A stretch of DNA of 26,493 bases from a virus, in IMG/VR virus record IMGVR_UViG_3300036884_000038, positions 1 to 26,493 of that record. One strand, given 5' to 3'. This document shows positions 1 to 26,493 of this stretch, in pieces; position 1 is the stretch's first letter; every line of letters begins with the position of its first letter. The notes under the pieces were generated by a model. That model made no database searches. It was not told the origin of the DNA and saw only the letters and a list, made by a program, of their open reading frames with translations. A program made the position numbers and the translations under genes.

Positions 1-280
1 TGAAGCGGTAGTTCTTTCCGGCCACCAGATTGACTGACAATCCTGTCACGGCTGCCAGGGCGGTATCACTGGTCTTGTCGAAGTCCGCCGTTGTTCTCAC
101 CTGCAAAGTCGGTACCATCAGGTCTTGCAAGTTGACCAGCGACAGGATAGCCGCCTGCAGATTGGCAAACGTGATATCTTTGCTCTCAGGCACGGCGCCA
201 GGGGTAACGACGGCTCGCAAGTAATCCGTCAACGCCAGTGTTGCCGTCAAATTCAGTAGTTCCTCTTTTGTATCAGCCAT
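1..280 (-). CDS. Tail accessory/fibre-like protein, N-terminal part (runs off left edge)
   Basis: Only the first 93 codons are present; the frame is open to the left edge. The start follows an AAGGAG ribosome site just downstream of the stop of the LamG tail gene. The protein begins MADTKEELLNLT and closely matches the full 199-residue protein encoded at 25664-26263, so it is a paralog or allele of that gene. Its position right after the tail tip gene suggests a baseplate or fibre component. Function is inferred from context only. Confidence 0.8.
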   Translation of the reverse strand, partial: MADTKEELLNLTATLALTDYLRAVVTPGAVPESKDITFANLQAAILSLVNLQDLMVPTLQVRTTADFDKTSDTALAAVTGLSVNLVAGKNYRF

Positions 281-510
281 AATAAGCTCCTTAGAAAGCT
301 ACGCCAGCGGGAGAACCATTTGGCGTTCCCACTATTCCGAATACGTTATCGAGTACCGGCAGGTCAACTGTCAGTGTGTGCCCCACGTAGTTTGCCAGTT
401 CTGGCGTTCGCACACACGGTCCCTGGAAGATCAGGCTATAGTCCAGCGGCCCAACCGCCGCCGATGGTACACCGCCGTTATAAAGGGTGGCCACTTCCAC
501 TGGGGTCAGG
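1..510. repeat. Left copy of a diverged 510-bp terminal direct repeat
   Basis: This stretch aligns without gaps to 25984-26493. By hand I count about 57 mismatches, all in positions 1-384; positions 385-510 (126 bp) are identical. It covers the 5' part of a tail accessory gene and the 3' end of the LamG tail gene. Many differences fall at third codon positions and both reading frames stay open, so both copies look like functional coding sequence rather than sequencing error. It may be a circular-genome overlap joining two alleles, or a true tandem duplication. Confidence 0.9.
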
Positions 511-2579
511 ATGCGGTTGTAAATGCGGATATCTTTCAGCCATCCCCCGAAAGGCAATGAATAGGCACTGCCAGCAAAATACGAATTTCCCAATACAAAT
601 ACTGATCCCAAAGAAGTTCTATAATCTCCCGAAGGGGTAGTAAATGTTGTGGCTACTGGAGATCCCCATATATACATAATGGGGGGAACAAAACTTGACA
701 TATCGCCCGTGATAACTACATGTGCCAGAGAAGTGAGAGAAATGGTTACGGCTGTGGGTTTTATGGTCATTCCGCCACTAAATCGGTTACTTGTAAAATT
801 TACTGTTGTATTATTGTTGTTCATCCAAACATAAAAGCCGTTCACCAAATCATAATCTGACAGAAGCATTTGAGGGTTGGCGTTGTTGTCATCGGAATGC
901 ATCCAAAAACTTATCGCGAATTTGCTTAGGATATCCATAGCAGGCAAATCACCAAAGTTCAAAGCATCATAAGATCCTCTTGTAAACTCCACTCCCACCG
1001 GCGACAACGCCCCATTTGTAACCGACAACATCTTCTTGACCGCCAGGACAACATTAATCTGCCCGGTCAGGCCCAAGGCAAAGTTCACAGCCTGCACGTA
1101 GAACCAATCGTTGATGGAATATTGGGCGTCGATCACCTGTACCAGGCTGCCTACGTCAATGTTCAGGAACAGTCGCATTGTGGCGTCTGAGATATTGGCA
1201 TCAAAGCGGAGACTATTTACCCTGGTGTGAGGGGCCTTGTTTGCTTCCAATATGCCAGCCCCCACCATTTCCCCCAAGTCCGTATCCTGCTGGTACACCT
1301 GGTCAATATTTAGATCCTGGTAACCGTAGATTTGTTCCGAGCTCGTGTTCTCCAGAACAGCCGACATATTGTCATCCTGGTAGATCGGCAGGCCCCGGAT
1401 CTTCATCCAGGTGATATAGCCTGTTTGGGTATAGGTATTGGTTAGAGTAATCGTTGCCTTTGCGCTCGAAAATGTACAGTTCAGTGTCAGGTAAGCCGTA
1501 ATATCTATCCCGCTTCCATCCGCCGCCGTGTTGAACAGATAATCTGTCGTCGCAACCGGATCGACCAGGCCCACGCCGCTGATCTCCTTGCCGCTCAATG
1601 GATTGCGGAAGGTATAGTGATGTACCCTTGCCGCTCCCGATGCAATTTTGATCGGCTTGTCCGTCCCCAAAGTCCACAGGTTTACCAGCGACGTTCCTAA
1701 CGTTTTTGGGTAGGCATTGATGGTTATTCGGTTGATGATATTCTCAGCATAAGTTTCGTCGACGGCATTGAGCATATTATTGAGGATTGCCGCATCCGTC
1801 AAGGCCGGAATGATCTTGTCGGTGGCGCTATTAGCTTTCAGGATATGATCGGTGGCGTTATTCGCCTTCAACAGGAAACCATCATCTACTTTTAGTCTAG
1901 GTATTCGAGAGAGAGCGTTCAACCCATTGCGGTGAGTATTGTTCTCGAACACCAATGTTTCTCCGAACGTCCGGTCGTGCTGCAGATAACAATAACCCAT
2001 TTCCGATTGAGCCAGCTTGTTGAACTCTTCGTAGGCTGTGGTTCGAACGCTGACGGCATCGAACAGGGAGGGGAATAACGTGTTGCCGATATCCAGGAGC
2101 TGCGCTTGGGGTTTGAGGGGCATGGCAGCTACGATGGTTGCGATGGCCTGATCAGCGCTGATATTGTAAGTTACCTGAGGATCTAAAAGAGGGTACTTTG
2201 AAGCAAACTCCAACCAATCCAGGCAGGTCACTTCTACGGTCAATGGTGTCTGAGGTTCGTTATGAGGAACCAGGGTATCCACACGGCCACGGAAACGAAT
2301 ATAACTCACGCCATCATAGACGACGGTAAACTGGACTGGCGTACATTTCCCCCAACCGGCAACAGGGCTGCCAACCTCAGGTAGATAGAGCGCCGCAGAA
2401 TTATCAAGGGTGAAGGTTAACTGTCCGACGTTGGCCATTCGTGTCTCAGGGCGATTGTCCGTGAAACCCCAGAAGGCGACGAAAGGACTGATGATGCAGT
2501 CGGCGGTGATATCCTGCCAGTTTGCACCGTCATAGAATTTCAACGTCCAGGAGTCAGGGTGAACATTCTGGAAGGTCAT
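291..2579 (-). CDS. Tail tip/baseplate protein with C-terminal LamG-like domain
   Basis: 762 residues, following the tape measure gene with an ATGA overlap (2576-2579). Residues about 1-540 look like a baseplate or tail hub protein: beta-rich, beginning with a distal-tail-like domain (FYDGANWQDI; later a VEVTCLDWLEFA segment). Residues about 540-760 resemble a LamG/concanavalin-like carbohydrate-binding domain, ending in the typical GGWLKDIRIYNRILTPVEVATLYNGG motif split as GGWLKDIRIYNR plus EVATLYNGG. Such domains usually bind host-surface sugars. A short near-repeat (LLKANNATDHILKANSATDK region) lies in the middle. No separate Dit gene is seen, so this protein may combine the distal tail, hub and receptor-binding roles. 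The exact division of roles is inferred. Confidence 0.75.
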   Translation of the reverse strand: MTFQNVHPDSWTLKFYDGANWQDITADCIISPFVAFWGFTDNRPETRMANVGQLTFTLDNSAALYLPEVGSPVAGWGKCTPVQFTVVYDGVSYIRFRGRVDTLVPHNEPQTPLTVEVTCLDWLEFASKYPLLDPQVTYNISADQAIATIVAAMPLKPQAQLLDIGNTLFPSLFDAVSVRTTAYEEFNKLAQSEMGYCYLQHDRTFGETLVFENNTHRNGLNALSRIPRLKVDDGFLLKANNATDHILKANSATDKIIPALTDAAILNNMLNAVDETYAENIINRITINAYPKTLGTSLVNLWTLGTDKPIKIASGAARVHHYTFRNPLSGKEISGVGLVDPVATTDYLFNTAADGSGIDITAYLTLNCTFSSAKATITLTNTYTQTGYITWMKIRGLPIYQDDNMSAVLENTSSEQIYGYQDLNIDQVYQQDTDLGEMVGAGILEANKAPHTRVNSLRFDANISDATMRLFLNIDVGSLVQVIDAQYSINDWFYVQAVNFALGLTGQINVVLAVKKMLSVTNGALSPVGVEFTRGSYDALNFGDLPAMDILSKFAISFWMHSDDNNANPQMLLSDYDLVNGFYVWMNNNNTTVNFTSNRFSGGMTIKPTAVTISLTSLAHVVITGDMSSFVPPIMYIWGSPVATTFTTPSGDYRTSLGSVFVLGNSYFAGSAYSLPFGGWLKDIRIYNRILTPVEVATLYNGGVPSAAVGPLDYSLIFQGPCVRTPELANYVGHTLTVDLPVLDNVFGIVGTPNGSPAGVAF

Positions 2580-4423
2580 CGTATAACGTTCCTTGCCATT
2601 GCAGCAATAAACGATCTGGTCATTCGGTCGTAGTCCGTCCGGTCGGTTGAAGCCGCTTGTAGCAGCATTTTGAATTGTTTGTCACTCATCCCGCCTGCAG
2701 TTTGTCCGGCTGGTGTTACCGCTACGTGTTCGCCGGAACTGACCCCCATTGGGAAGCTGTCTCCAGGATAGCCGGAGGGTACTTCAAAGTTTGCCCCGGC
2801 TGCAGCTTTGATAGGTTTGCTCCCTCCTTTAGAACCTTCTACCTGCGCTTGAGCGTATCCAACCCCACCGCCAGAATAGGTAATAGCGACATCCATGTGA
2901 CGATCGACAAATAGTTCATTCCAACTTGTCGCATAATCTTGGACGGCTTGATTGAGTACAGCTAACTTATCTTCAGCATCCTTGGAATAAAGACCGAGAT
3001 CCTCGCCGCGTTTGATATATTCCTGAGCTTCATCTGCAGTCAGACCGTTCTCCATGAGCTTGCGAAGTAGGATATCCTGCCCTATCTTAGCCGTGGCAGT
3101 GTCATAGGCGGTTTGAACAGCCTTGATAGCAGTCTGATCATCCTGAACGTTCTGTATCAATCCCTTGATCTTTGTTCCAGTTTCCGCATAACCTTGTAGG
3201 CGGGCCTTGGCTAGAGCAACCTCGTCGGCGCCCTCTTTCTTGTTGGCAGTTGATAGGTCGGCATGGTATGTATCCGTGGCAGCCTGAACCTTATCCAGGT
3301 CGGTGAGAGCTGTTTCGTAATTGGTGGTAACTGTTACCGTTACGTTTTTATTGCTCAAGCCTTTAATTAGAGCAGCGTTCTCTTCCAGTTGATGAGCTTG
3401 TACTTGGTCAGCCGCCGTCATATCTTTAATATTTTGCAGTTGTGTCGGAGCAATGGTATTGTAGTAGTCAATTTGTTGGTTTTCGTGAAGCTGAGACTGA
3501 ATCTTCGCTTCAATTCCTGCCCTATAACCAGGATCAACCATCATGGCCGCCTGCATCTGATCGACATTCAGACCTTCAGCCTTTGCCACTTCGTTAGTCG
3601 CATCCGCCAGATCCTTGAAAAACTGAATATCAGAAGCATATTTATCCAGAAGTGAGGCAAGAAAATCGTTCAAGGTTTTCAAAGGTGGAGTTAAGGTTTC
3701 ACCGATACTCACTGATAAATTATCTGAACTGACTTTCAGCCTGTCAGAACCATCACTGGCCATTTCCATGGCCTGGGCCGTGCCTCCGAATTTCTTTTCT
3801 ACTATATCCAGGATAATTCCCTGAGCAGCGGCCAGGTTATTTTCTGCTACGAAATTATCTATCTGTGTTTTCTGGTCGGCATCGAAGCGAATACCCACCC
3901 GGCTAAGGGCAGTCAGGCCATTGGTGGGATCGTTCAGCGCCAACCCCAGAGCCTTGGTAGCACTCTCCACACTGCCAAAGACCGTTTGAAGATCAAAGGC
4001 GTCTTTGACGGCTCTCGGGAAAACATTATCGCTGATATTCGTAAAGGTCAGCATCATGGACTCCGAGTCCATAACGACCTCTTTGGTAACACCATCCTGG
4101 CGAGAAAGTTCGTCCGTGAGTTGTTTGAGTTCGTTGGCAGTCACGCCAGCATCTCCGCCAGTGGCCTTCAAGATTGCGTCTTGCTTGGCCTGGGTCATAT
4201 TGAAAGCATCCGCAGCCTGTTCAGCGGCGATCAGGTACTTACCCACTTCCTGAGCGGCCTTCGTGAGAACGGCTATCCCAGCGGTGGCTCCTACGGCTTG
4301 CGCGCCTAAGCCCTGGATGGATGATTGCGTTCCATCCGTAGTCACACCAGCCTTCTGCATATCAGAAATATACTGGCCCACGTCAGCAACGAGTTTAGCG
4401 CCTAAGTTTAGAATAGATGGCAT
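2576..4423 (-). CDS. Tail tape measure protein
   Basis: 615 residues, the longest alanine- and helix-rich protein in the tail block, placed between the tail tube and tail tip genes, where tape measure genes lie. The N-terminus (LGAQAVGATAGIAVLTKAAQ) and long charged helical stretches (residues about 200-480) fit a tape measure. Known tape measures span about 0.15 nm per residue, which would give a tail of roughly 90 nm. The start is three bases after the stop of the preceding gene and in the same frame, separated only by TAA and one proline codon. It overlaps the next gene by ATGA. Confidence 0.85.
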   Translation of the reverse strand: MPSILNLGAKLVADVGQYISDMQKAGVTTDGTQSSIQGLGAQAVGATAGIAVLTKAAQEVGKYLIAAEQAADAFNMTQAKQDAILKATGGDAGVTANELKQLTDELSRQDGVTKEVVMDSESMMLTFTNISDNVFPRAVKDAFDLQTVFGSVESATKALGLALNDPTNGLTALSRVGIRFDADQKTQIDNFVAENNLAAAQGIILDIVEKKFGGTAQAMEMASDGSDRLKVSSDNLSVSIGETLTPPLKTLNDFLASLLDKYASDIQFFKDLADATNEVAKAEGLNVDQMQAAMMVDPGYRAGIEAKIQSQLHENQQIDYYNTIAPTQLQNIKDMTAADQVQAHQLEENAALIKGLSNKNVTVTVTTNYETALTDLDKVQAATDTYHADLSTANKKEGADEVALAKARLQGYAETGTKIKGLIQNVQDDQTAIKAVQTAYDTATAKIGQDILLRKLMENGLTADEAQEYIKRGEDLGLYSKDAEDKLAVLNQAVQDYATSWNELFVDRHMDVAITYSGGGVGYAQAQVEGSKGGSKPIKAAAGANFEVPSGYPGDSFPMGVSSGEHVAVTPAGQTAGGMSDKQFKMLLQAASTDRTDYDRMTRSFIAAMARNVIR

Positions 4424-4426
4424 GGG

Positions 4427-4705
4427 TTATTCCTTTGGCCCTAAGGCAATGGTCATCAATTCCATCATCTGTTTGTTGGCCTTCCAACCATCCAGGTCAG
4501 GCGGAGGCGGAGGTGGCTGGCGGGATTTGGCAAGAGCATCCAGGGCGGCCAACATTGATTGAAACGCTAACTGCTCCTTGATAAGCAGCCCGGTCAGCCA
4601 TTCCACCATAGTCGATACCAGGTGAGTGGCGAACTTAAAGCGAAACGTTCGCCAGGCCACCCAGCGCGCCAGTCGTTTCGGGGTCATCTTAGACAGGCGG
4701 GGCAT
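4427..4705 (-). CDS. Small tail protein, possible tail assembly chaperone
   Basis: 92 residues: a basic helical N-terminus (MPRLSKMTPKRLARWVAWRTF), a hydrophobic helix, a run of six prolines (residues about 64-69) and a helical C-terminus. It lies between the tail tube and tape measure genes, where siphophages usually encode assembly chaperones. The classical gpG/gpGT -1 frameshift product is not evident: I see no clear slippery heptamer, and the next gene is in the same frame. Only two bases separate it from the tail tube stop, so it is probably translated by coupling. The function rests on position alone. Confidence 0.6.
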   Translation of the reverse strand: MPRLSKMTPKRLARWVAWRTFRFKFATHLVSTMVEWLTGLLIKEQLAFQSMLAALDALAKSRQPPPPPPDLDGWKANKQMMELMTIALGPKE

Positions 4706-4707
4706 GT

Positions 4708-5133
4708 TTACGCCCAGGCGATTGCGCCAGAGATATCCAGGGTCACATCAGCCGACAGAGCGGGTTTGACGCCACTCTTGAAGGCAACTTCACTCACGTA
4801 GGCTGAGAAGGTGCACATGGAAGCATCCGGCCAGACCATCTGGAAGTTTCTGAAGGTCTTCAACCGCCAGTCCTTGACCAATCCAGCCGCATTGGAATGG
4901 GTGGCATTGGAAGGCACAAAGTTCACAGGAAACTTGACCTGGCCCACCGACTGGATGGTTGGAATGGACTCTTCCATCCCGCCAGATGAGTGGGAAGTCA
5001 CAACTTCCATGTTGGATTTCAGATCCGGACCGGCGATATCGCCAACTTCGGCGATGAGGGTAAATACCTCAGGGGTAGCAGCATCGCCCCTTTTCAGTTG
5101 GGTTAAATAACTTGCAATTGCAGGGGTGGTCAT
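4708..5133 (-). CDS. Major tail (tube) protein
   Basis: 141 residues with an AAGGAGA ribosome site. The sequence pattern (N-terminal LTQLKRGDAATPEVFTLIAEVGDI, a GPDLKSNMEVVTSHSS segment, and a beta-rich C-terminus ending LSADVTLDISGAIAW) matches short siphophage tail tube proteins, which begin with a description of the tube subunit's input series and end with a strand of this type. It sits two bases upstream of the chaperone-position gene and before the tape measure. Tube subunits stack in hexameric rings around the tape measure. The family assignment is by recognition, not by alignment. Confidence 0.75.
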   Translation of the reverse strand: MTTPAIASYLTQLKRGDAATPEVFTLIAEVGDIAGPDLKSNMEVVTSHSSGGMEESIPTIQSVGQVKFPVNFVPSNATHSNAAGLVKDWRLKTFRNFQMVWPDASMCTFSAYVSEVAFKSGVKPALSADVTLDISGAIAWA

Positions 5134-5164
5134 AATATTTTCTCCTTGTTACATTTGATAGGTG

Positions 5165-5536
5165 TTACATAGCTTCTTTGATGCACCAGAACTTTACATC
5201 TGTTCCGCCTGCATTAATGGTGATGACGACAGTCCCGTTGGATTGATTGAACCCAGCGGGTTGTATCTTGGGAAGGACTGACAATAGCCCAATCCCTACC
5301 GTATAGACGATATCCCCTAGACGGTTGAAGCCATTGAGGACACTCTTGACGGTGATGACCTGCGAGGCAGCGCCACCCTTGACGAGAATGATCTCATTCC
5401 CATCACAAGGGAAACTCACGCCATCTGCAGCGGTGGTGGCAGATTCGCCCACACCAATATCCAACGACAGAGCCGTTGGAGGCAGGGTTGGGTAATTCTT
5501 GGGCATTTGAAAGACGGTAAGCGGTACGACAGCCAT
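5165..5536 (-). CDS. Neck/tail-region structural protein, paralog of the adjacent gene
   Basis: 123 residues with an AAGGAG site before ATG. It is a clear paralog of the next gene upstream (5547-5918): both are 123 residues, start with a Val/Leu-rich strand then QMP-x-x-YP, contain DGxxFPxxGxEIIxV-type segments and a PxxQPxGxxNxxG motif, and end in a beta strand. Small beta-sandwich proteins in this position are often tail terminators or virion decoration proteins. I do not recognise the family, so the role is left open. Confidence 0.65.
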   Translation of the reverse strand: MAVVPLTVFQMPKNYPTLPPTALSLDIGVGESATTAADGVSFPCDGNEIILVKGGAASQVITVKSVLNGFNRLGDIVYTVGIGLLSVLPKIQPAGFNQSNGTVVITINAGGTDVKFWCIKEAM

Positions 5537-5546
5537 TGGTTACTCC

Positions 5547-5918
5547 TTAATCAGAAAGTTTGAGAACGATGAACTCCACGGCTGTGTCTGAAGCAACCAT
5601 GTGGAGATTTCCAGATGGATTAGCCCAACCCTGAGGTTGGAACTGTGGCAGCATCATGTATTCGCCTGCTCCCAGGGAGTAGGTCGTGACATCGCCGGTG
5701 CGACTGAATGGATCAGCGTAACTGGTGACGGTCAGGGTCTTGGCTCCAACAGCGCCATTATGCACGATCACGATCTCTTTGCCGGTGACGGGAAACTCAG
5801 CCCCATCAGCGCACGAGGCGCCAGCAGGTGTGAATGCGATGTCCCACAGGTTAGCCGCCGGTTGCAGCACAGGATATTTCGCCGGCATTTGATACGGGGT
5901 CAAAGTTAAAGCAGTCAT
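5547..5918 (-). CDS. Neck/tail-region structural protein, paralog of the adjacent gene
   Basis: 123 residues, beginning MTALTLTPYQMPAKYP. The stop codon of the upstream DUF3168-like gene lies within its AAAGGAGTAA ribosome site, so the two are closely coupled. It pairs with the 5165-5536 gene as an equal-length tandem duplicate. Predicted mostly beta. Its location between tail completion genes and the tail tube suggests a virion protein. Function is otherwise unknown. Confidence 0.65.
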   Translation of the reverse strand: MTALTLTPYQMPAKYPVLQPAANLWDIAFTPAGASCADGAEFPVTGKEIVIVHNGAVGAKTLTVTSYADPFSRTGDVTTYSLGAGEYMMLPQFQPQGWANPSGNLHMVASDTAVEFIVLKLSD

Positions 5919-5921
5919 AAT

Positions 5922-6281
5922 TTACTCCTTTGTGGCCATAAAGCCAATTTCTACACGAACATAATTTAGGTCGGTAACGTCCTCAAGACCATCCGTCCGA
6001 CCTTCAACAAACATATTGTTACGATTGATCACGTCTTCCAGGGCATTGGCGATACTGTCGGCAACGTCGCTGGTGGATGACCAGCAGGTGAACTGCCACC
6101 TTGGAAAGGTTACCACCGTCTTGGAGTGAGTGTACTCCTTGGCCGTGCTGACACGCTGGAAGACGATGTTAGGAAGGACAGCCGTCTTGGGCATGCGGTT
6201 ACGATAGATACGAGTAGAGACCAGGGTCGCAAGTGTGACGTCCATCTTCAACATGGTCAAGAGGTCTTGGGCGATGGTCAT
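5922..6281 (-). CDS. Tail completion/terminator protein, DUF3168 (gp17-like)
   Basis: 119 residues. The layout fits DUF3168 and gp17-type tail terminator proteins: an N-terminal helix (IAQDLLTMLKMD), then VSTRIYRNRMPKTAVLPNIVFQRVS, a conserved FTCWSSTSDVADSIANALEDVI helix given here in two parts (FTCWSSTSD and VADSIANALEDVI), and a final strand. It overlaps the gp10-like gene by ATGA. Members of this family cap the tail tube and join it to the neck. Confidence 0.7.
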   Translation of the reverse strand: MTIAQDLLTMLKMDVTLATLVSTRIYRNRMPKTAVLPNIVFQRVSTAKEYTHSKTVVTFPRWQFTCWSSTSDVADSIANALEDVINRNNMFVEGRTDGLEDVTDLNYVRVEIGFMATKE

Positions 6282-6628
6282 GGTATTTGTTTCTCCATTT
6301 CCTTGCTCATCTCCGTCTCGATTTCATCCATGTGTTCGTCGATGGCAGGCCGCAGGTACGGTTCAGCCGCCATCTTAGAAGTACCAAATTCCACGAACGA
6401 GGCATAATCAGCCGCATAGCCCACAATAGGGCTGGTATCCTCTCTATCAAGCTGCCCGGTGCTGCGAAGGAAACCTGTGTCCACTGGAGTGTTGATGAGA
6501 GCATATCTCAGGATCACCTTGGCTCCAGCCAACAGGATATTGAACAAGTTCTCGCCTTGGGCTGCCTTGATAGCATTAGCCAACCTTTCGTCTTGCTTAC
6601 CCCAGTCACCTACTAAAATCACTTTCAT
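6278..6628 (-). CDS. HK97 gp10-like tail completion protein
   Basis: 116 residues. It contains the ALINTPVDTGFLRSTGQLD pattern followed by GYAADYASFVEFGTSKMAAEPYLRPA, shown here as GYAADYASFVEFGTSK and AEPYLRPA. That motif order (PVDTG-LR then Y-x-x-FVEFGT then P-Y-L-RPA) is diagnostic of HK97 gp10 and related minor tail or neck proteins. It follows a 13-codon micro-ORF whose stop overlaps this start (ATGA), and its own stop overlaps the DUF3168-like gene. Confidence 0.85.
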   Translation of the reverse strand: MKVILVGDWGKQDERLANAIKAAQGENLFNILLAGAKVILRYALINTPVDTGFLRSTGQLDREDTSPIVGYAADYASFVEFGTSKMAAEPYLRPAIDEHMDEIETEMSKEMEKQIP

Positions 6629-6666
6629 CGTTCTCCGCCGTCTGTTGGAACAAATATTTTAGTCAT
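6625..6666 (-). CDS. 13-codon micro-ORF coupled to the gp10-like gene
   Basis: It starts with ATG seven bases after a strong AGGAG site, encodes MTKIFVPTDGGER and stops in an ATGA overlap with the gp10-like start. The gp10-like gene itself lacks a comparable ribosome site, so this micro-ORF may serve as a translational entry for it. It could also be the remnant of a longer neck gene disrupted by the neighbouring tailspike. Whether the peptide has a function is unknown. Confidence 0.4.
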   Translation of the reverse strand: MTKIFVPTDGGER

Positions 6667-6790
6667 GATAAACTCCTACATTCAAGGTTAACTTATTTCT
6701 TCGCCATCCTCTGTACGCTGGTTTGCAATACCAACCGCCAGTCAATTGATTGTCGTCCCAAATTGAGACATCGGGGAGTAATGCGTTCAT
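6659..6790 (-). CDS. Small hypothetical ORF (43 residues)
   Basis: It starts ten bases after the tailspike stop and encodes a 43-residue peptide beginning MNALLPDVSIWDDNQL, rich in Trp and basic residues (YRGWRRNK). The ribosome site is weak, but it fills an otherwise empty 170-base gap and overlaps the micro-ORF at 6625-6666 by eight bases. It may be real or a remnant. I recognise no family. Confidence 0.35.
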   Translation of the reverse strand: MNALLPDVSIWDDNQLTGGWYCKPAYRGWRRNKLTLNVGVYHD

Positions 6791-6800
6791 TTCATATCTT

Positions 6801-8420
6801 CTATGTTCCTGCCGTCATCTGTCTCATAATGTTTCCGGCCTGGTTGATAGGAGCCAAGAAACACACAACTTGATTTCCTAAAGTTACATCAGCTCCAGTA
6901 ATGGTATATAGATTGCCACTCTGTTTTAATGTCAGACCTGCACCCGTATTTCTAATCCCAAATGGACGAGAGGCAATGATCTGAGCGATGTTCTTAGTTT
7001 GAGAAGTCATATACATTGAGTCGCTGCCAATATTGATTATTGTATTAGCACTTGCGTCGTAATAAAGAATTTCCCTATTGAACAAATTGTCAAGCAAAAC
7101 CTGTTTAGTCATATCCGCTACACCTACTTTTATCCATCCCTTGTACACAAGTGGAGAGTCGTTATAGGCAGTCCGGTAACTTCCTGTTGTTGTAATGGTT
7201 TCGTTATTGGTTATTGTAACCCCGGCTGTACAGCCATCCGGCACAGTTATACCGATCAACGGATAGTTTGTAGAGACCACCATCTTGTTATTGTGGATAG
7301 CATAAGTACCGCCGTTGTCTGAAACTACCAACCCGATAAAACCTTCAAAGTTGGATGACGCTCCTGCATCGTCCAGTTGGTTGCCGGAAATCTCGTAATT
7401 TCCTGGCCCCATATAACATTGAATCATGTAGTGTCCACTACCGCCGTCCCATCCATCACCAATCTTATTGTCCTTTATCGCGATATTTGCGAATAGCGAT
7501 GGATTTCCCACCCTGTCCATAATTAAAATACCGTCGGCTGTATATAAACCGGAAATATGATTATTATAGATACGTGTCTTAACTAATTGGTGGACTTCAT
7601 TGTCCACCCAAATAGGGGTATTTCCTGCCAAGACCGATGTATTTTGAATCTGATTGTCATGAATATCTAAATAATATCCACCACATTCGCAAGGTTGCCA
7701 AACATCCTTGAAAATATTGTTATGGATATTGACACATGTGGGCACAATTATGGATATTCCGTCATGTCCTAAATTGTCAAATAAATTGCTTGATATTTCA
7801 AAGTCTTTCAATAGTCTATCAGAATATATTTGTTCGACACGTCCGGATCTGAATACACAATCTTTTACGCAACCTCCGACAACCCCCATGAGCCCTATTG
7901 CACCATTGTATCGTTCATCCCATGCATCGCCAATGCCCCAAATTCCCAGAAAGGTCATACCAAAGCATCGGAAATTATGTACTTGCAACCCACTTTCTGT
8001 TGGTATTCCTGCCACTACCGCGCGGACTCCAGTGTTGAATACTCGGATTAGGCCACCACCGTAAGGAGAAGCCCATAAATGTGTGACTGGATTGAAGTCG
8101 TCTGACACGTCATCCGTGTAAAGTGTTGCTCCATATCCCATCACAGTTACATTATCTTGCCAGATGTGGAAACCATGCGCTATTTTAAATATTTTGTTGG
8201 GTGGAAAGAATAATGTTCCTCCTATTGAAGGAATATCGGCGGCTGCTGCCTCTAACGCCGCTGTATCATCATGTATACCATCCCCAACCGCGCCGTAATC
8301 CATGACATTGAAAGATACCTTTCGTTCTTCCGAATCAATCAAATCGGCAAAATTCGCCTCGCTGGGAATGTCGCCAGTGTTGAAATATCCTTTTAGCGTT
8401 GTTTTATCTTGTGTTGTCAT
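6801..8420 (-). CDS. Tailspike with right-handed beta-helix (pectate lyase 3-like)
   Basis: 539 residues. The N-terminus has the virion-attachment motif common in phage fibres (LKGYFNTGDIPSEANFADLI, residues 9-28). It is followed by the pectate lyase 3/glycosidase signature YGAVGDGIHDDTAAL (residues 42-56) and then repeated N-N and D-N-turn strands typical of a beta-helix (ISSNLFDN, IHNNIFKD, IYNNHISG, IKDNKIGDG, ISGNQLDD, ITNNETI). Such tailspikes cleave or bind capsule or O-antigen polysaccharides. The placement is odd: it interrupts the connector/tail completion genes rather than following the tail tip gene. Base composition looks more AT-rich than its neighbours, suggesting acquisition. 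Confidence 0.85.
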   Translation of the reverse strand: MTTQDKTTLKGYFNTGDIPSEANFADLIDSEERKVSFNVMDYGAVGDGIHDDTAALEAAAADIPSIGGTLFFPPNKIFKIAHGFHIWQDNVTVMGYGATLYTDDVSDDFNPVTHLWASPYGGGLIRVFNTGVRAVVAGIPTESGLQVHNFRCFGMTFLGIWGIGDAWDERYNGAIGLMGVVGGCVKDCVFRSGRVEQIYSDRLLKDFEISSNLFDNLGHDGISIIVPTCVNIHNNIFKDVWQPCECGGYYLDIHDNQIQNTSVLAGNTPIWVDNEVHQLVKTRIYNNHISGLYTADGILIMDRVGNPSLFANIAIKDNKIGDGWDGGSGHYMIQCYMGPGNYEISGNQLDDAGASSNFEGFIGLVVSDNGGTYAIHNNKMVVSTNYPLIGITVPDGCTAGVTITNNETITTTGSYRTAYNDSPLVYKGWIKVGVADMTKQVLLDNLFNREILYYDASANTIINIGSDSMYMTSQTKNIAQIIASRPFGIRNTGAGLTLKQSGNLYTITGADVTLGNQVVCFLAPINQAGNIMRQMTAGT

Positions 8421-8424
8421 ATTA

Positions 8425-8874
8425 TTACCTTATTTTTGAGTAACCAACCTTACTGTAACCAACGATAAAATATAGAGACTCAGCACTTATGGAGGTTGGG
8501 AAAATCTTAGACAATGGCACGACCATACAAGTTCTGAAATAGACAGGTGGAGCAGAAACGTAGAACAACTCATTGGGAAGGGAATCGTTCCTGGAGTGCA
8601 AAGATATGCGATCTCCGACACTTAGCGACAAGGCAGAGTTACATCGCAAGAGATCATCGCACTTACCGATATCAATCTGACCGAGACCATAAGCCTGGGT
8701 AGAGGTGGGATTAAAGATACTGCCTTGTTTCGGCGCGCCGTCCAGGAACACTGAAATAAGCCCACCATCAACATCGGGGATTTCAGTAAGGATACCAATA
8801 AGAAACCAGTCAGCATAACTGGAGTCCTGCTCAGCCACCATAGACTTGACTTCGCCTGAACGGATTGGCTTCAT
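8425..8874 (-). CDS. Head-tail joining/neck protein (hypothetical)
   Basis: 149 residues. The start overlaps the connector gene by ATGA. The beta-rich middle (GILTEIPDVDGGLISVFLDG; LSLSVGDRISLHSRNDSL) looks like an OB-type or stopper fold, and the order connector, this gene, gp10-like, DUF3168 (ignoring the tailspike) is the standard head-tail joining order, in which this slot is the stopper. The C-terminus has a short internal repeat, VGYSKVGYSKIR. The function is inferred from order. Confidence 0.6.
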   Translation of the reverse strand: MKPIRSGEVKSMVAEQDSSYADWFLIGILTEIPDVDGGLISVFLDGAPKQGSIFNPTSTQAYGLGQIDIGKCDDLLRCNSALSLSVGDRISLHSRNDSLPNELFYVSAPPVYFRTCMVVPLSKIFPTSISAESLYFIVGYSKVGYSKIR

Positions 8875-15909: not shown

Positions 15910-16115
15910 TTCGTGTCCTCCGTGACAGGTTGCCACTTTTCGACGAAAGTCAGCATGTCAAAATTGTGATTGCAAACTGTTTTGGCGTATCCCCAATCAA
16001 TTGTCACCATGCGCCAATCCAGATCAACTTTTCGCACAGTTCCAGTTGATTTCGGGTTGCCTTTCATCATCACAACTTCGCCGGGAAGTAATAAACTTGC
16101 CTGTTTAGCGTTCAT
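15906..16115 (-). CDS. Small beta-rich protein (69 residues)
   Basis: 69 residues beginning MNAKQASLLLPGEVVMMKG. The pattern LLPGEVVMMKGNPKSTGTVRKVD followed by a WRMVTIDWG strand resembles small SH3-barrel or KOW-like domains in phage early regions. Overlaps both neighbours by ATGA. Function unknown. Confidence 0.6.
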   Translation of the reverse strand: MNAKQASLLLPGEVVMMKGNPKSTGTVRKVDLDWRMVTIDWGYAKTVCNHNFDMLTFVEKWQPVTEDTK

Positions 16116-16327
16116 TTCGTCTCACCTTCGGCGCGGGAAATGGCGGCGCGAAGCATTTCATATTCGGGGTGTTCTTCACCATCCTCGGTTTGCGTTAGGC
16201 CAATACCTTCCAAATATTCAACAGCCTTCTTGCACGCTTCGAGCAGGTCGGGCGCGGCGGCTATATAGAAACGCTGCCCACCATGATTTTCCGGCTCGGT
16301 TACGATACTTATAAAGAATTTGCACAT
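16112..16327 (-). CDS. Small protein sharing its N-terminus with the repeat gene (71 residues)
   Basis: 71 residues from MCKFFISIVTEPENHGGQRF; the open frame extends further upstream, but that part overlaps the preceding gene. The first 21 residues match those of the 16369-17226 gene apart from one inserted residue, and the leader sequence is also shared. The rest (LLEACKKAVEYLEGIG ... EMLRAAISRAEGE) is a helical domain resembling a common small phage protein pattern. The shared start suggests duplication of a 5' gene end followed by divergence or fusion. Confidence 0.65.
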   Translation of the reverse strand: MCKFFISIVTEPENHGGQRFYIAAAPDLLEACKKAVEYLEGIGLTQTEDGEEHPEYEMLRAAISRAEGETK

Positions 16328-16359
16328 GATATTGTCTTTCTGCCGTCTAAACGGCGAGG
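16265..16359. repeat. Direct repeat copy A (95 bp)
   Basis: This matches 17167-17258 over its whole length except for a three-base insertion (TTA) and few if any other changes. It contains the leader, the small hairpin GCCGTCTAAACGGC, the start codon and the first 21 codons of the 16112-16327 gene. The two copies are about 900 bp apart in the same orientation and flank the dipeptide-repeat gene's body, so recombination would delete it cleanly in frame. Confidence 0.9.
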
Positions 16360-16368
16360 GTAAATTAG

Positions 16369-17226
16369 TTATGGTTTCCAGATATAAACTATCTCCGCCT
16401 TTTCGCCACTGTGCAACCGCCATGTTTGGCCGTCGCAGGAGGGTACTAATCCCGCCTCCCATAATTTGACGCAGGGAGAGAAGTCATATTTATAGGTGAT
16501 GTCGAAAAATGAACTTGTGTAAGCCCAGACGCTGTCCCAGACGCTGTACCTGACGCTGTCCCAGACGCTGGCGCTGACGCTGTCCCAGACGCTGTCCCTG
16601 ACGCTGGCGCTGACGCTGTCCCAGACGCTGTACCTGACGCTGTCCCTGACGCTGGCGCTGACGCTGGCGCTGACGCTGTCCCTGACGCTGTCCCAGACGC
16701 TGGCGCTGGCGCTGTCCCAGACGCTGTCCCTGACGCTGTCCCTGACGCTGTCCCAGACGCTGGCGCTGGCGCTGGCGCTGACGCTGTCCCTGACGCTGTC
16801 CCAGACGCTGGCGCTGGCGCTGGCGCTGACGCTGGCGCTGACGCTGTCCCTGACGCTGTCCCAATTTTTCAGCCACTGAATTTGCTCATCTGTTACCTGC
16901 TCAACTTTTGGCAGTTTGAATGGATGAACAATCGGCTTGATAATTAACGGCTCTACGATCGTTTTGTAATCAAGGCCATTGAACCAATCTGCAACTTGCA
17001 CGCGGTCGTCAATACCGCTGTTGAGTTGGTCAACAACAAATTCACGTGACAATGGGTTGAACTCGTACTTATTGCACTTATCCTCGTCCAGGCCATTGGC
17101 TTTGCAAAGCAGGGAGTGGCTATCGTTTTCCTTGTCAAGATGTTCCTTGCGATATTGCCAATCACGATAGAAACGCTGCCCACCATGATTTTCCGGCTCG
17201 GTTACGATACTAAAGAATTTGCACAT
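16369..17226 (-). CDS. Protein with 56 tandem SV/SA/WD/RD dipeptides
   Basis: 285 residues from MCKFFSIVTEPENH; this start is supported because its leader is duplicated before the 16112-16327 gene. Residues 1-121 are a mixed globular domain (LLCKANGLDEDKCNKYEFNPLSREFVVDQL). Residues 122-233 consist entirely of dipeptides, mostly SV alternating with WD, RD, SA and a few RY. Residues 234-285 are a C-terminal segment with aromatic residues (DITYKYDFSPCVKLWEAGLV). The repeat is regular enough to form a solenoid or fibre, with Trp/Arg/Asp pairs on one face. I do not recognise the family with certainty. Function unknown. Confidence 0.75.
   Translation of the reverse strand: MCKFFSIVTEPENHGGQRFYRDWQYRKEHLDKENDSHSLLCKANGLDEDKCNKYEFNPLSREFVVDQLNSGIDDRVQVADWFNGLDYKTIVEPLIIKPIVHPFKLPKVEQVTDEQIQWLKNWDSVRDSVSASVSASASASVWDSVRDSVSASASASVWDSVRDSVRDSVWDSASASVWDSVRDSVSASVSASVRDSVRYSVWDSVSASVRDSVWDSVSASVWDSVRYSVWDSVWAYTSSFFDITYKYDFSPCVKLWEAGLVPSCDGQTWRLHSGEKAEIVYIWKP
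16528..16863 (-). repeat. Tandem hexamer/12-bp minisatellite (coding)
   Basis: 336 bases made of 6-base units; on the coding strand AGCGTC (Ser-Val) mostly alternates with TGGGAC, AGGGAC, AGCGCC or AGGTAC. There are 56 hexamers, equal to 28 units of 12 bp, in a non-uniform order. Because the unit length is a multiple of three, gains and losses keep the frame. The other two frames of this strand are also free of stops within the array. Confidence 0.9.
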
Positions 17227-17258
17227 GATATTGTCTTTCTGCCGTCTAAACGGCGAGG
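17167..17258. repeat. Direct repeat copy B (92 bp)
   Basis: This is the partner of 16265-16359, covering the leader and the first codons of the dipeptide-repeat gene. It lacks three bases present in copy A, which removes one residue from the encoded N-terminus. See copy A for the consequences. Confidence 0.9.
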
Positions 17259-17330
17259 AGTGATTTGGCGGCTCGGACTCTTCGTTTCGCACCATGCAGC
17301 CGATATATGATAGGTGACACCGCCAATTGA

Positions 17331-18341
17331 TTACAGCAACGCATCTTTGTCAAATTGTTCAATCGCAGCATCGAACTGCACAGTTTGCAACGGACGGCCT
17401 GCAGTACGAGCGGCCATGATTACGTCGATGGCATCCTTCTTGCGCTGCTGTTCATCCGTTAGTTTCTTTTTGGCGCTGCACAATCCCTGATATATATTTG
17501 AGAGGGCTTCAGTTGCGACTTGACCGTAAGGCATCTGATAGGTGGTAGAAAATTCATCCTCAGCCGCCTCGATAGACATTTTGGCAACTGCCTGTTCGGG
17601 CTGGGCCGGCGCGGGCTGCTTGGCGGGTTCGGGTTGTTTCGCCGGCGCACCTGAGTTCAGCCATTCCATGAGAGGAATAAAGAACTTTGCGCCCGGTTTA
17701 TTCTCGACCTTGTCAGCGAAGAAATCACAGCGGCTTTTGCTGATAATCAGGTTGTGGTCAGTATCCATATCGCCAACGATGGTAAATTCGTATTCCATGC
17801 CTTGGCGCTGAATAGGGGCCATTCCGACTTTGCGGGGAACTGACTTGCCCCGGTCATTTGTTTCGATGACGTATTCAACCTTGGTCCGCATGGTGGCTAT
17901 GATATGGCAGGATGATTGAAGCATGGCGTCAATCAGTTTGCGGTGGATAGGAGTAACGTCCTTCCAGGCGGTGTATGAGTTCCCAGATTGACTGCGCTTT
18001 GTTGCGGCGTCCACCATATCCAGTGCCCCGCCTTCACCTTCCCAGGCGTGAGACAGGCTGTCGATCACGATCACGGCATACCCGTTTTCCTCAGCCGCCG
18101 TTATCATGTCGATATAGGCTTTCGGGCTGAAACTGTCCAGGAACACCGCGTCGAAGTTGAACTTGTCACTGTAAAGGCTTGAGCTCTTGCGCTCGGTGTC
18201 AATTACGGCAATCTTTCCACCCTTTGCCAGTACAGTGGCTGCTACAAGCGCGGTATAGGTCTTCCCAGACCCTGACGGACCGTCAAGCGCAAGTCGTAAC
18301 TTGGCTTGACTTTTTACTGCTTTTACAAATGGGTTACTCAT
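17331..18341 (-). CDS. Sak4-like single-strand annealing/RecA-fold ATPase
   Basis: 336 residues. Walker A is LDGPSGSGKTYTA (GPSGSGKT at residues 21-28) and Walker B is AVIVIDSLSHAW (residues 89-100); the latter fits the phage AAA_24/Sak4 nucleotide-binding family. Residues 128-220 complete the ATPase core. A Pro/Ala-rich linker (residues about 235-250) leads to a helical C-terminal extension not typical of minimal Sak4. Sak4 proteins promote annealing in phage recombination, usually with an SSB; no SSB gene was noticed. The start overlaps the preceding micro-gene by ATGA. Confidence 0.75.
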   Translation of the reverse strand: MSNPFVKAVKSQAKLRLALDGPSGSGKTYTALVAATVLAKGGKIAVIDTERKSSSLYSDKFNFDAVFLDSFSPKAYIDMITAAEENGYAVIVIDSLSHAWEGEGGALDMVDAATKRSQSGNSYTAWKDVTPIHRKLIDAMLQSSCHIIATMRTKVEYVIETNDRGKSVPRKVGMAPIQRQGMEYEFTIVGDMDTDHNLIISKSRCDFFADKVENKPGAKFFIPLMEWLNSGAPAKQPEPAKQPAPAQPEQAVAKMSIEAAEDEFSTTYQMPYGQVATEALSNIYQGLCSAKKKLTDEQQRKKDAIDVIMAARTAGRPLQTVQFDAAIEQFDKDALL

Positions 18342-18442
18342 TTCCTCCTACCTTTCTTATCTATCGTTTGTAGCCACGTCACAAGCGCGGCCCAGAAAAC
18401 TACGATTGCCAGAACACCGAGTTCAAAGGAATAGTTGTCCAT
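18338..18442 (-). CDS. Small single-span membrane protein (34 residues)
   Basis: 34 residues beginning MDNYSFELGVLAIVVFWAA, with one hydrophobic span (about residues 8-25) and a strongly basic tail (TIDKKGRRK). The start follows the previous stop by two bases, and the stop overlaps the Sak4-like start as ATGA; its terminal codons also supply the AGGAGG site of that gene. The location is precise enough to support a real gene. Function unknown. Confidence 0.7.
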   Translation of the reverse strand: MDNYSFELGVLAIVVFWAALVTWLQTIDKKGRRK

Positions 18443-18444
18443 GG

Positions 18445-18747
18445 CTATAATCCCCACCGTACAGTTTCAGCCGTGTGAAGCTGATCAGCGCCGTCAAATT
18501 CCTCCGGATGCTCGACCGACCGATTGTACAGCCTGGTAAATTCAGTCCAGGCTTCGTCTGCCTTCCGCATTGCAGCCAGTCTGTCACCCATCAAATCTGG
18601 CGTTCTGGCCTCTTCCCGGATCGCCTCATACCGTTCGCGGGCTTTTACAATTTCTTCGACCGCCAGGCGATAAGTTTCCGCCGCCTCGCAAACGGTCAGG
18701 GGCATTGTGCTGCGTTGACTCATTTCGGGAATATCTTCTTGAGACAT
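18445..18747 (-). CDS. Hypothetical early protein (100 residues)
   Basis: 100 residues, helical and charged, with a GGAGA site before ATG. Segments such as VEEIVKARERYEAIREEA and MRKADEAWTEFTRLYNRSV suggest a helical bundle or coiled coil. It lies between the HNH endonuclease and the Sak4-associated micro-gene. No family is recognised. Confidence 0.6.
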   Translation of the reverse strand: MSQEDIPEMSQRSTMPLTVCEAAETYRLAVEEIVKARERYEAIREEARTPDLMGDRLAAMRKADEAWTEFTRLYNRSVEHPEEFDGADQLHTAETVRWGL

Positions 18748-18749
18748 GG

Positions 18750-19244
18750 CTATCTCCGTTCTATCGGGAAATTAGTTCGAATACAGTTTCCGTAATATTT
18801 TCTTGCTGCGTCGTCCCAGGCGTGAGCAGCCTCTACGGGATCAGAGAAGAATCCGATTACAGTTTCTTTTTTATTTATCCTAATTCGAGCACGCCATTGC
18901 TTTCCGGTTCCCCTAAATTTCCCATCTTTAGATACGCCTTTATAACCGGATGTATTATTCCGTTTTATTCCAAAGTTTTGGCGATTTTCTTGAGTGGTGC
19001 AGGTACGCAGATTGGATTTTCTGTCATCCAGCCTGTTGCCGTTGAGATGATCGGTTTCCATGCCCGTTGGTGTGTGATTTATTTCGCGGTGCATTCGAAT
19101 GGTTCCCCTTTTTCCATTGGGATCAGTTGGACTATTTCTTACGGCATATCCCTGGCAGCAATACCACTTCCACTGCGACAACCATTCAAAGTCATCGTCA
19201 TCAACAATAGCAACCTTGCCCTGGGTAAGCGGGATTTCTTTCAT
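18750..19244 (-). CDS. HNH homing endonuclease with AP2 DNA-binding domain
   Basis: 164 residues. The N-terminal part has the HNH3 signature: MHREINHTP, then ETDHLNGNRLDDRKSNLR (Asp65-His66 with the N-x8-N pattern). The C-terminus (residues 98-160; TSGYKGVSKDGKFRGTGKQW, AWDDAARKYYG) is a classical AP2 domain. Such free-standing genes are mobile and cut specific sites in related genomes lacking them. It sits directly after the RHH gene and replaces nothing obvious. Confidence 0.85.
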   Translation of the reverse strand: MKEIPLTQGKVAIVDDDDFEWLSQWKWYCCQGYAVRNSPTDPNGKRGTIRMHREINHTPTGMETDHLNGNRLDDRKSNLRTCTTQENRQNFGIKRNNTSGYKGVSKDGKFRGTGKQWRARIRINKKETVIGFFSDPVEAAHAWDDAARKYYGNCIRTNFPIERR

Positions 19245-19247
19245 GGA

Positions 19248-19433
19248 TTACCTGCGCTCGATTTCTTCCTCGATGGTCTGAGGTTGGGGGCGTGGCGTTT
19301 GCATCTTGAACCACTCCTGGTTGATAAGGTGTCTGATCGTACCCGACTTAGTCGGGATGCCATTTTTTACTGCAATAGCCTTCAGCCGTTGCTCAGTCTG
19401 TTCGTCAAGCTCAAAATTGATTACTTTTCCCAT
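19248..19433 (-). CDS. Ribbon-helix-helix DNA-binding protein (CopG-like)
   Basis: 61 residues starting MGKVINFELDEQTEQRLKAI, selected over an upstream ATG because AAAGGAGATCAC precedes it. A strand followed by two helices (residues 3-8, 11-22, 29-42 with the RHLINQEWF helix) fits an RHH repressor fold. The C-terminus is Pro/Gln-rich. It is the first gene of the early block, directly behind a consensus promoter containing 11-bp repeats, which suggests autoregulation. Confidence 0.75.
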   Translation of the reverse strand: MGKVINFELDEQTEQRLKAIAVKNGIPTKSGTIRHLINQEWFKMQTPRPQPQTIEEEIERR

Positions 19434-19453
19434 GTGATCTCCTTTCGTAATAT

Positions 19454-19487
19454 CTACTATTTTACTACGCATTTTCTACGCTGTCAA
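19454..19487 (-). promoter_or_regulatory. Early promoter with 11-bp operator-like repeats
   Basis: On the minus strand TTGACA (19482-19487), a 17-base spacer and TAAAAT (19459-19464) form a near-consensus sigma70 promoter for the RHH gene and the early block. On the plus strand CTAC recurs exactly every 11 bases, at 19454, 19465 and 19476, with CTACGC at the last two. Repeats spaced by about one helical turn and covering the -35/-10 region are what one expects for RHH repressor binding. Confidence 0.75.
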
Positions 19488-19507
19488 TAAGCAAAACGTA
19501 AAATTCA

Positions 19508-19533
19508 CCTATCAATTCCCTTACAATGATAGG
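19508..19533. promoter_or_regulatory. 7-bp inverted repeat in the early intergenic region
   Basis: CCTATCA (19508-19514) and TGATAGG (19527-19533) form a perfect dyad with a 12-base spacer. Next to it, GCGTT or GCGTA boxes recur at 19533, 19544 and 19554. This lies in the 260-base region (19434-19693) without any convincing gene, between the divergent early genes. It is probably a regulator site; no U-run suggests termination. Confidence 0.45.
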
Positions 19534-19643
19534 CGTTATTTTGGCGTTTTTAAGCGTATGTTTATTGGAGGATCAAATTCAGATACACAGTAAAAGTAAA
19601 ATCGCTCTACGGCCTTCCTGTGCAATCTGGTAGCCTTCCAGCG

Positions 19644-19673
19644 TGCACTTCCGCGCCCGTTTCGTGCTAGAAT
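19644..19673 (+). promoter_or_regulatory. Possible promoter for the plus-strand membrane gene
   Basis: An extended -10 (TGC TAGAAT, hexamer at 19668-19673) lies 20 bases upstream of the ATG, with a weak -35 candidate (TGCACT at 19644-19649, 18-base spacer). The expected start would leave a leader of only about 14 bases carrying GAGGG. It is the only plausible promoter found for the only plus-strand gene. Confidence 0.35.
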
Positions 19674-19693
19674 AACAGCGGAGGGAAAATCAC

Positions 19694-19903
19694 ATGACCG
19701 ACCAACCCGAAAAAGTATTCGATCCCAAACAAGGGAAAATGGCAGATAAATCAGCGGAGCAAAAGATGACACCAGAACAAATCTACATGCTGGAGAGCCT
19801 GAAACTGTTGACGAAGATAAATAACGGTGTCACCTTTTTTGTCATCCTGGCTTTAATTGGAATCATACTTGGCTTACTTGCCTACTGTTCGCCATTGCAT
19901 TAG
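19694..19903 (+). CDS. Single-span membrane protein, only plus-strand gene
   Basis: 69 residues with a GGAGGG site before ATG. The N-terminal 43 residues are hydrophilic (MTDQPEKVFDPKQG, then QKMTPEQIYMLESLKLLTKI). Residues 44-66 form one hydrophobic span (VTFFVILALIGIILGLLAYC). The predicted topology is a cytoplasmic N-terminus with a C-terminal anchor, seen in immunity, superinfection exclusion and holin-accessory proteins. It converges with the endolysin gene, with 24 bases between the stops, and is transcribed against all other genes. It may be expressed independently of the lytic programme. An antisense reading at 19536-19772 is less convincing. Confidence 0.65.
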   Translation: MTDQPEKVFDPKQGKMADKSAEQKMTPEQIYMLESLKLLTKINNGVTFFVILALIGIILGLLAYCSPLH

Positions 19904-19927
19904 TAACCTCAATACCATCCAGAAGTT

Positions 19928-20932: not shown

Positions 20933-20943
20933 TTCAATCTCCT

Positions 20944-21693
20944 TTATGAATTTATTACTGGCAATTCACAGCAACGACAATTAGGATGGGTGTCCATGAT
21001 TTCATCGACATCATGGATTGTACCGTTTTCTGAAAGACAGTCTTCACAGGCATCTGCCTGGGCCAGCCATTCCCATTGACCAATATTAAAGCGCTTGAAG
21101 TTTTCCAAACTCGCGGAGCGGAAGACGTTTAACTGTTCCGTCCTGGCAATTCTCAGGGCCTTCCAGCCGATAACATCCGCCTCCTTGGTCATCAACCTGG
21201 CAGTTTCAATCGGGTTTATTCCCATGGCCGTCGAACGGATCAAAATGTCGGTGATCTTGCCAATCGTTTCAGGATAGTTTTTCGTCAGCATATCGTAGAG
21301 AGACGAACCATCCTGGCAGCGACCAATCATATTTAGAATGGCCTGGACTGGTAGGGAACGAGAAACCCAGTCCACGCCAGCCAAAGCCGGGGCCCAACCC
21401 ATGACTGCGAACGCCTTCTGTTCGGTTGAGATAATATTTACCGCCTGGTTGGCAAAAATATCCATCTGCCTTTGAGCCTGGGCAAGCATGGCCTTGTATT
21501 CGGCGGAACGAAATACCTGATTTGGTGTCAGCAATCCAGCCCGGGCTAGTTTTTGTATATAGGCGTCCAGGCCATATTGAACTATCTGCCACTTATCGGC
21601 AAGGTAGATCATTTCGTCAGCCTCACGCTGGGCCATGAGACCGCGCACCTTCTTCAGGTATTGCTCAGCCAGTTGGCGGTAACTGTCCGGCAT
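20944..21693 (-). CDS. MuF-like minor head protein
   Basis: 249 residues, overlapping the portal by 29 bases. It is helical through residue about 180; then come ARTEQLNVFRSASLENFKRF (residues 183-202) and QADACEDCLSENGTIHDVDE with THPNCRCCELPV (residues 212-246). This A-R-T-E ... C-x2-C ... H-P-N-C-R-C order is typical of the phage Mu F/SPP1 gp7 head morphogenesis family. These proteins join the portal inside the procapsid. No C-terminal toxin domain is attached. Confidence 0.85.
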   Translation of the reverse strand: MPDSYRQLAEQYLKKVRGLMAQREADEMIYLADKWQIVQYGLDAYIQKLARAGLLTPNQVFRSAEYKAMLAQAQRQMDIFANQAVNIISTEQKAFAVMGWAPALAGVDWVSRSLPVQAILNMIGRCQDGSSLYDMLTKNYPETIGKITDILIRSTAMGINPIETARLMTKEADVIGWKALRIARTEQLNVFRSASLENFKRFNIGQWEWLAQADACEDCLSENGTIHDVDEIMDTHPNCRCCELPVINS

Positions 21694-25056: not shown

Positions 25057-25068
25057 AAATGCACCTTT

Positions 25069-25242: not shown

Positions 25243-25664
25243 TTTATGCCTCCCATGCGAATATATAAAACTGCAAGTCCCGCTGCCTGGGTAATGAACG
25301 TTCCGATTACTGCCAAAACAACCGCCCATGTCCTACCAGAGATTTTCTCTCGTTGCGCCTTCACTTCGGTGGCCAGCGCCTCGCGGGCCGCCCTGGCTTC
25401 TTCAGCCAACAAGTCCTTGGCGTCCTTCGTTTCTTTCGCCAGTAAAGCCCTGGCGTCACCTTCCTCTAGCGACCGTTTTAGATGATCAGCCACCAGTCCT
25501 TGTAAAACTCGGTGATCTTCAATCAGACCAGGCTGTCCATTGCCGTTGAGACATTTATCAAGCCGGCTCGTTGCCGATTCAATAAGGGCAAGGCGAGTGT
25601 CAATAACTCCCAGCAAAGTAGCTATTTCCGCGGTATTGCCCCGCAGTTGCGTTGTCGGGCCCAT
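25239..25664 (-). CDS. Coiled-coil protein with C-terminal membrane anchor
   Basis: 141 residues. Residues 15-105 form an alanine- and glutamate-rich coiled coil (RALLAKETKDAKDLLAEEA, RAAREALATEVKAQREK). Residues 110-135 form one hydrophobic span (TWAVVLAVIGTFITQAAGLA). The topology resembles the XhlA-type haemolysin/holin partners or spanin-like phage lysis accessories. Overlaps the upstream gene by TAATG and the next by ATGA, forming a two-gene membrane cassette. Confidence 0.6.
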   Translation of the reverse strand: MGPTTQLRGNTAEIATLLGVIDTRLALIESATSRLDKCLNGNGQPGLIEDHRVLQGLVADHLKRSLEEGDARALLAKETKDAKDLLAEEARAAREALATEVKAQREKISGRTWAVVLAVIGTFITQAAGLAVLYIRMGGIK

Positions 25665-26263
25665 TATGCTACCTCGTCTAAGAACATTGAGCTGCCCACC
25701 TTGACGGTGGACTTGGTAGCGATGCTGGTTCCCTGGGCGAACTGGACCAGGAATGTACCCCCCACACTGACTGAAATGAAACCAGTTATTTCTACATAGG
25801 GATTGGGATTAGCGCCTGCCGTCGATATAAGTCCGCCGGTTACAGAGGTGGCACGCGCCTGAACTTGACCCGACGAACCATAAAACAGATTAGCGTCAGC
25901 GATGAATACACCCGCCGTCACTGTCCCGCCACAAGTAACCTTGACCCCGCCCGAGGTGACCGACACGCAATGCAGTCGGATGGTGAAGCGGTAATTCTTT
26001 CCGGCCACCAGGTTGACCGATAACCCTGGGACGGCTGCCAGGGTGGTATCACTGGTCTTGTCAAAATCCGCTGTAGTGCGAACCTGCAAAGTCGGCACCA
26101 TCAAGTCAGTCAAGTTGACCAATGACAGGATAGCCGCCTGCAGGTTGGCAAATGTGATATCTTTGCTCTCTGGCACGGCTCCCGGGGTGACGACGGCTCG
26201 CAGATAATCCGTCAGCGCCAGTGTTGTAGTTAAGTTTAGCAGTTCCTCTTTTGTATCAGCCAT
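25664..26263 (-). CDS. Tail accessory/fibre-like protein (complete copy)
   Basis: 199 residues with AAGGAG before ATG. The first 60 residues are helical (MADTKEELLNLTTTLALTDY). The rest is a beta-rich region starting VRTTADFDKTSDTTLAAV and containing small Gly/Thr/Val strands (GGVKVTCGGTVTAG; GGTFLVQFAQGTSIATKSTV), as in trimeric baseplate or fibre tips. The first 93 residues correspond to the partial copy at 1-280. Placement after the LamG gene makes it a probable receptor-binding or fibre component. Confidence 0.65.
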   Translation of the reverse strand: MADTKEELLNLTTTLALTDYLRAVVTPGAVPESKDITFANLQAAILSLVNLTDLMVPTLQVRTTADFDKTSDTTLAAVPGLSVNLVAGKNYRFTIRLHCVSVTSGGVKVTCGGTVTAGVFIADANLFYGSSGQVQARATSVTGGLISTAGANPNPYVEITGFISVSVGGTFLVQFAQGTSIATKSTVKVGSSMFLDEVA

Positions 26264-26493
26264 AATAAGCTCCTTAGAAAGCTACGCCGGCAGGCGACCC
26301 ATTAGGAACGCCCACCACTCCGAATATATTATCAAGGACCTGCAGGTCCGCCGTCAGTGTGTGCCCGACGTAGTTTGCCAGTTCTGGCGTTCGCACACAC
26401 GGTCCCTGGAAGATCAGGCTATAGTCCAGCGGCCCAACCGCCGCCGATGGTACACCGCCGTTATAAAGGGTGGCCACTTCCACTGGGGTCAGG
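25984..26493. repeat. Right copy of the diverged 510-bp terminal direct repeat
   Basis: This is the partner of positions 1-510, ungapped, with differences concentrated in 25984-26367 and none in 26368-26493. It spans the start of the 199-residue gene and the last 73 codons of a second LamG tail gene. Joining the copies at the exact 126-bp overlap would close a circle of about 25,983 bp. Confidence 0.9.
26274..26493 (-). CDS. LamG tail protein, C-terminal fragment (runs off right edge)
   Basis: Only the last 73 codons or so are present, open to the right edge. The fragment ends with EVATLYNGGVPSAAVGPLDY and on to GSPAGVAF, matching the end of the 291-2579 protein with a few conservative changes (TADLQVLDN versus TVDLPVLDN). 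It is the second copy, or the same gene if the genome is circular. It is followed by the same AAGGAG-led accessory gene. Confidence 0.8.
   Translation of the reverse strand, partial: LTPVEVATLYNGGVPSAAVGPLDYSLIFQGPCVRTPELANYVGHTLTADLQVLDNIFGVVGVPNGSPAGVAF

Follow-up and report, generated by a model that had tools for sequence, protein, structure and literature searches.

Diverged ends of a phage contig: a very probable assembly overlap between the alleles of two strains on a circular map

Introduction

Terminal repeats of metagenomic viral contigs can be left behind by the assembler itself. CheckV attributes the common terminal-repeat lengths of such contigs to k-mer length (PMC8116208), and COBRA describes how contig ends overlap by maxK or maxK-1 where de Bruijn assemblers break, with maxK-1 for IDBA_UD only and an overlap equal to maxK for metaSPAdes and MEGAHIT (PMC10914622). 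The window analysed here spans an entire virus record (26,493 bases), IMGVR_UViG_3300036884_000038, whose two ends resemble each other over 510 bases. As we read it, its overlap is like the k-mer overlaps of circular contigs in having at its end an exact block of a size that fits a common k, a circular template and a contig broken at within-population variation, and is unlike them in extending over 384 bases of a second allele.

The other system to be considered is the T7-type direct terminal repeat, with which the window shares a same-orientation repeat at both contig ends. Phage direct terminal repeats are re-copied in every cycle, so that their copies remain identical, whereas the copies in the window carry 57 differences and differ at 15% of their first 384 bases; moreover, the region is single and internal in a relative.

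Results and Discussion

The diverged terminal repeat

Realignment of positions 1-510 with 25984-26493 confirmed the description in the earlier note, namely that the two ends align without gaps and that the roughly 57 differences lie within 1-384 and give way to a 126-bp exact block. The 57 mismatches run from position 11 to position 384, after which 385-510 and 26368-26493 are exact as far as the final base of the contig. The second copy is matched by the first at an E value of 1.8e-193, far beyond chance. The record as a whole carries no exact end repeat. Both frames are open, as had been noted (accessory frame 280..2, LamG frame 510..291), yet each gene is cut in one copy: the contig start truncates the first accessory copy, with 93 of 199 codons left, and the contig end truncates the second LamG copy, with 72 residues left. 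The two versions, referred to here as alleles A and B, are listed with the genes that they touch in Table 1, in which L010 denotes a close relative described below.

Table 1. Features at and around the contig ends
Feature	Position	Strand	Remarks
Allele A: LamG-gene 3' end and accessory-gene start	1..384	.	57 differences from 25984-26367, mostly synonymous; contig starts inside
Accessory gene, allele A, 93 codons before contig-start cut	2..280	-	
Tail protein of 762 aa, LamG/ConA-like domain at the C-terminus (residues 535-697)	291..2579	-	PF13385, E 4.6e-13; adjoins tape measure gene
A/B joining point, exact 126-bp block	385..510	.	Size expected of a k-1 overlap in a k=127 graph
LamG domain segment, truly variable part	490..980 (approximate)	-	44% aa identity to L010, flanks 84-95%
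Complete allele-B copy of the 199-aa accessory gene	25664..26263	-	Without Pfam or PHROG match
Allele B, same locus	25984..26367	.	L010 has the B state at 51/57 A/B sites
126-bp block, second copy, at the contig end	26368..26493	.	Runs on into 511 in the circular map

Block length and a toy assembly graph

A set of 80 IMG/VR microvirus contigs served as the yardstick for end-repeat lengths. Exact end repeats were present in 39 of these contigs, the commonest lengths including 121 (11 contigs), 123 (5), 99 (4) and 127 bp (2), and some imperfect overlaps had an exact block of 126 (L064) or 127 (L087) bases beside a mismatch. Set beside these peaks and blocks, the 126-bp end block of the window has a size that fits an assembly k that we infer, as we do the status of A and B as separate strains in the sample. 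A toy de Bruijn graph, in which allele B lay on the circle and allele A formed a partly covered tip, returned an end overlap of 510 bases with 57 mismatches and an exact end block of 126; its k of 127 was picked to fit, and the graph therefore demonstrates sufficiency, not proof. A strict metaSPAdes or MEGAHIT overlap at k=127 would be 127 bases, against the 126 observed.

A single-copy relative and closure of the map

Two very close relatives of the window were found in other metagenomes, L010 and L009. The first, L010 (IMGVR_UViG_3300036885_000356, 10,407 bp), is an independent contig that represents a relative and not the same genome. It matches window 17054-26435 at 99.1% identity, and past 26435 it continues unbroken through a 551-bp homologous but divergent LamG segment and then into window 995-1468. 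Because the right-end sequence of the window runs into its left-end sequence there, L010 carries the region across the end join once, single and contiguous as a strain overlap requires, with a single LamG end and a single accessory gene; in L010 the LamG frame (394 codons) and the 199-aa accessory gene lie side by side, each intact. At the 57 A/B sites L010 has the B state 51 times and the A state twice. Closing the window from 26493 to 511 gives back the 762-aa LamG protein and the 199-aa accessory protein, while closure from 26493 to 1, the join expected of a tandem duplication on a circle, ends the accessory protein at 94 aa and leaves a LamG piece without a start.

The one-copy relative, the closure that leaves both genes whole and the toy graph therefore lead to a map of about 25,983 bp, circular or circularly permuted, on which the terminal repeat is very probably an assembly overlap of two strain alleles. 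These three lines, together with a block whose size fits a k-mer, support the option of two co-existing strains among those raised in the earlier note. A real duplication is not supported, and the observed end similarity itself is correct.

Under this strain overlap, the genome would map as a circle, whether it is itself circular or is packaged as a circularly permuted molecule, and would have a single LamG tail gene with a single accessory gene after it; the sample would hold at least two strains about 15% apart over the LamG 3' end and the accessory-gene start. The assembler would have started the contig within allele A, moved past the point where A equals B, made one full turn of the genome, returned via allele B and halted on reaching the k-mer common to both (126 bases, k=127). 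On such a path, the last allele difference and k, and not biology, would fix where the exact block begins and ends.

Such a case means that strain variation can mask the overlap of the ends, so that a circular phage map which is in effect complete is recorded as a 'linear' contig; here, exact-repeat detection misses the overlap because it extends 384 bases into the second allele. Genomes of this kind would be recovered if the outer stretch of the overlap were allowed to contain mismatches, with an exact near-k block at the very end. Diverged contig ends also call for caution against calling duplication.

Differences between the two alleles

Comparison of A with B in the accessory gene gave 30 synonymous and 4 nonsynonymous codon changes (dN 0.032, dS 0.617), and the 31 variable LamG codons gave 10 synonymous and 5 nonsynonymous changes (dN 0.11, dS 0.79). 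Diversifying selection between A and B was rejected on the corresponding dN/dS values of about 0.05 (accessory gene) and about 0.14 (the 31 LamG codons). With about 40 of 49 changed codons synonymous overall, the suggestion that the differences target the part of the phage in contact with the host did not hold for A versus B. Judged by their codon changes, A and B behave as two functional alleles under purifying selection, without accelerated change at the host-contacting surface. A search of IMG/VR found no match for allele A in any other viral contig and matched allele B to L010 only; the same search gave no exact match for the 126-bp block.

Real variation between close relatives

The window and L010 share 44% amino acid identity in the LamG domain (residues 535-697), compared with 95% over residues 370-510 and 84% over residues 700-762, and several kilobases elsewhere are identical. 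At the DNA level, window 490-980 corresponds to L010 9383-9933, where the LamG domain is replaced by the 44% identical version with sharp edges in phages that are otherwise about 99% identical. The LamG domain beside the block is thus strongly divergent between close relatives. The second relative, L009 (15,454 bp, metagenome 3300037090), is 99.8% identical to window 1648-8420 and then has 3.27 kb where the window has 75 bp; the gene that follows differs at its 3' end. This extra cassette of about 3.2 kb (L009 6774-10043, at window 8421-8495) lies beside the tail spike, is absent from the window, and encodes a PKD-like protein (under the Pfam cut-off), a polysaccharide deacetylase (PF01522, E 1.7e-16) and a protein without assignment.

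Phages frequently exchange tail and surface genes as modules. It is possible, though we hold this tentatively, that near-identical phages of uncultured Anaerolineae carry a polymorphic receptor region, consisting of LamG alleles and a carbohydrate-deacetylase cassette present or absent beside the tail spike, which would be swapped by recombination while the rest stays about 99% identical, and of which the A/B alleles would form one edge.

A recombination hotspot, in which the 126-bp block would serve as a conserved homology anchor for swaps of receptor alleles, had been proposed in the earlier note; it would suit both the sharp end of the A/B difference at 384/385 and the sharp-edged LamG and tail-spike neighbour modules swapped among relatives, but it is highly improbable, as the block is not conserved in L010 (many mismatches from base 386 on), its length and position would follow from k (the length being that of a k=127 graph), the A/B changes are mainly synonymous, and the L010 and L009 breakpoints are located elsewhere. 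A special role for the block was dropped on account of its loss in L010. A real duplication, tandem or terminal, spanning the LamG end and the accessory gene, with copies that diverged within one genome, is scarcely credible: one contig does bear both copies and both frames are open, but the near relative is single-copy, the head-to-tail join breaks both genes (a 94-aa accessory protein, LamG without a start) so that the two copies are not both usable, the repeat would need to end by chance exactly 126 bp beyond the last mismatch at the contig end, and true direct terminal repeats would have stayed identical.

The accessory protein, host and other genes

Searches of Pfam and PHROG gave no family match for the accessory protein, whose relatives are those of L010 (98%), the more distant contig L099 (84%) and L005/L011 (27%). 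Its structure model is poor (mean pLDDT 49) and gives no more than a hint of helices at the N-terminus with beta strands after them. Among annotated phages, neither a DNA search with window 1-2600 nor a protein search with the LamG protein returned a match.

The host is probably anaerolinean, since Anaerolineae genomes, among them that of the isolate Longilinea arvoryzae KOME-1, carry relatives of the portal (43-46% identity) and of the terminase halves (48-53%). A closer relative, L099 (85%), is a contig binned with Methylobacillus, where it is probably misbinned. The large terminase is split into separate ATPase and nuclease genes (window 23835-24728 and 23104-23838) that overlap by 4 bases, a split retained in L010, L099, L101, L104 and the Longilinea provirus L103; literature searches on split terminases and on Anaerolineae phages yielded no paper of direct use. 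In the terminase-portal interval, L099 has a NUMOD3 / weak GIY-YIG homing-endonuclease-like gene (L099 2661-3422) that is absent from the window.

Window 16524-16862 holds a 12-bp repeat present 28 times, which encodes a repetitive protein of the DSVSAS/WDSVRDSV type, and both the L010 contig start and the L099 match ends fall near this repeat. The minus-strand genes at 16112-16462 and 16369-17295 have a near-identical segment in common (PFRRQKDNIMCKFF..IVTEPENHGGQRFY), a local duplication near the start of each gene.
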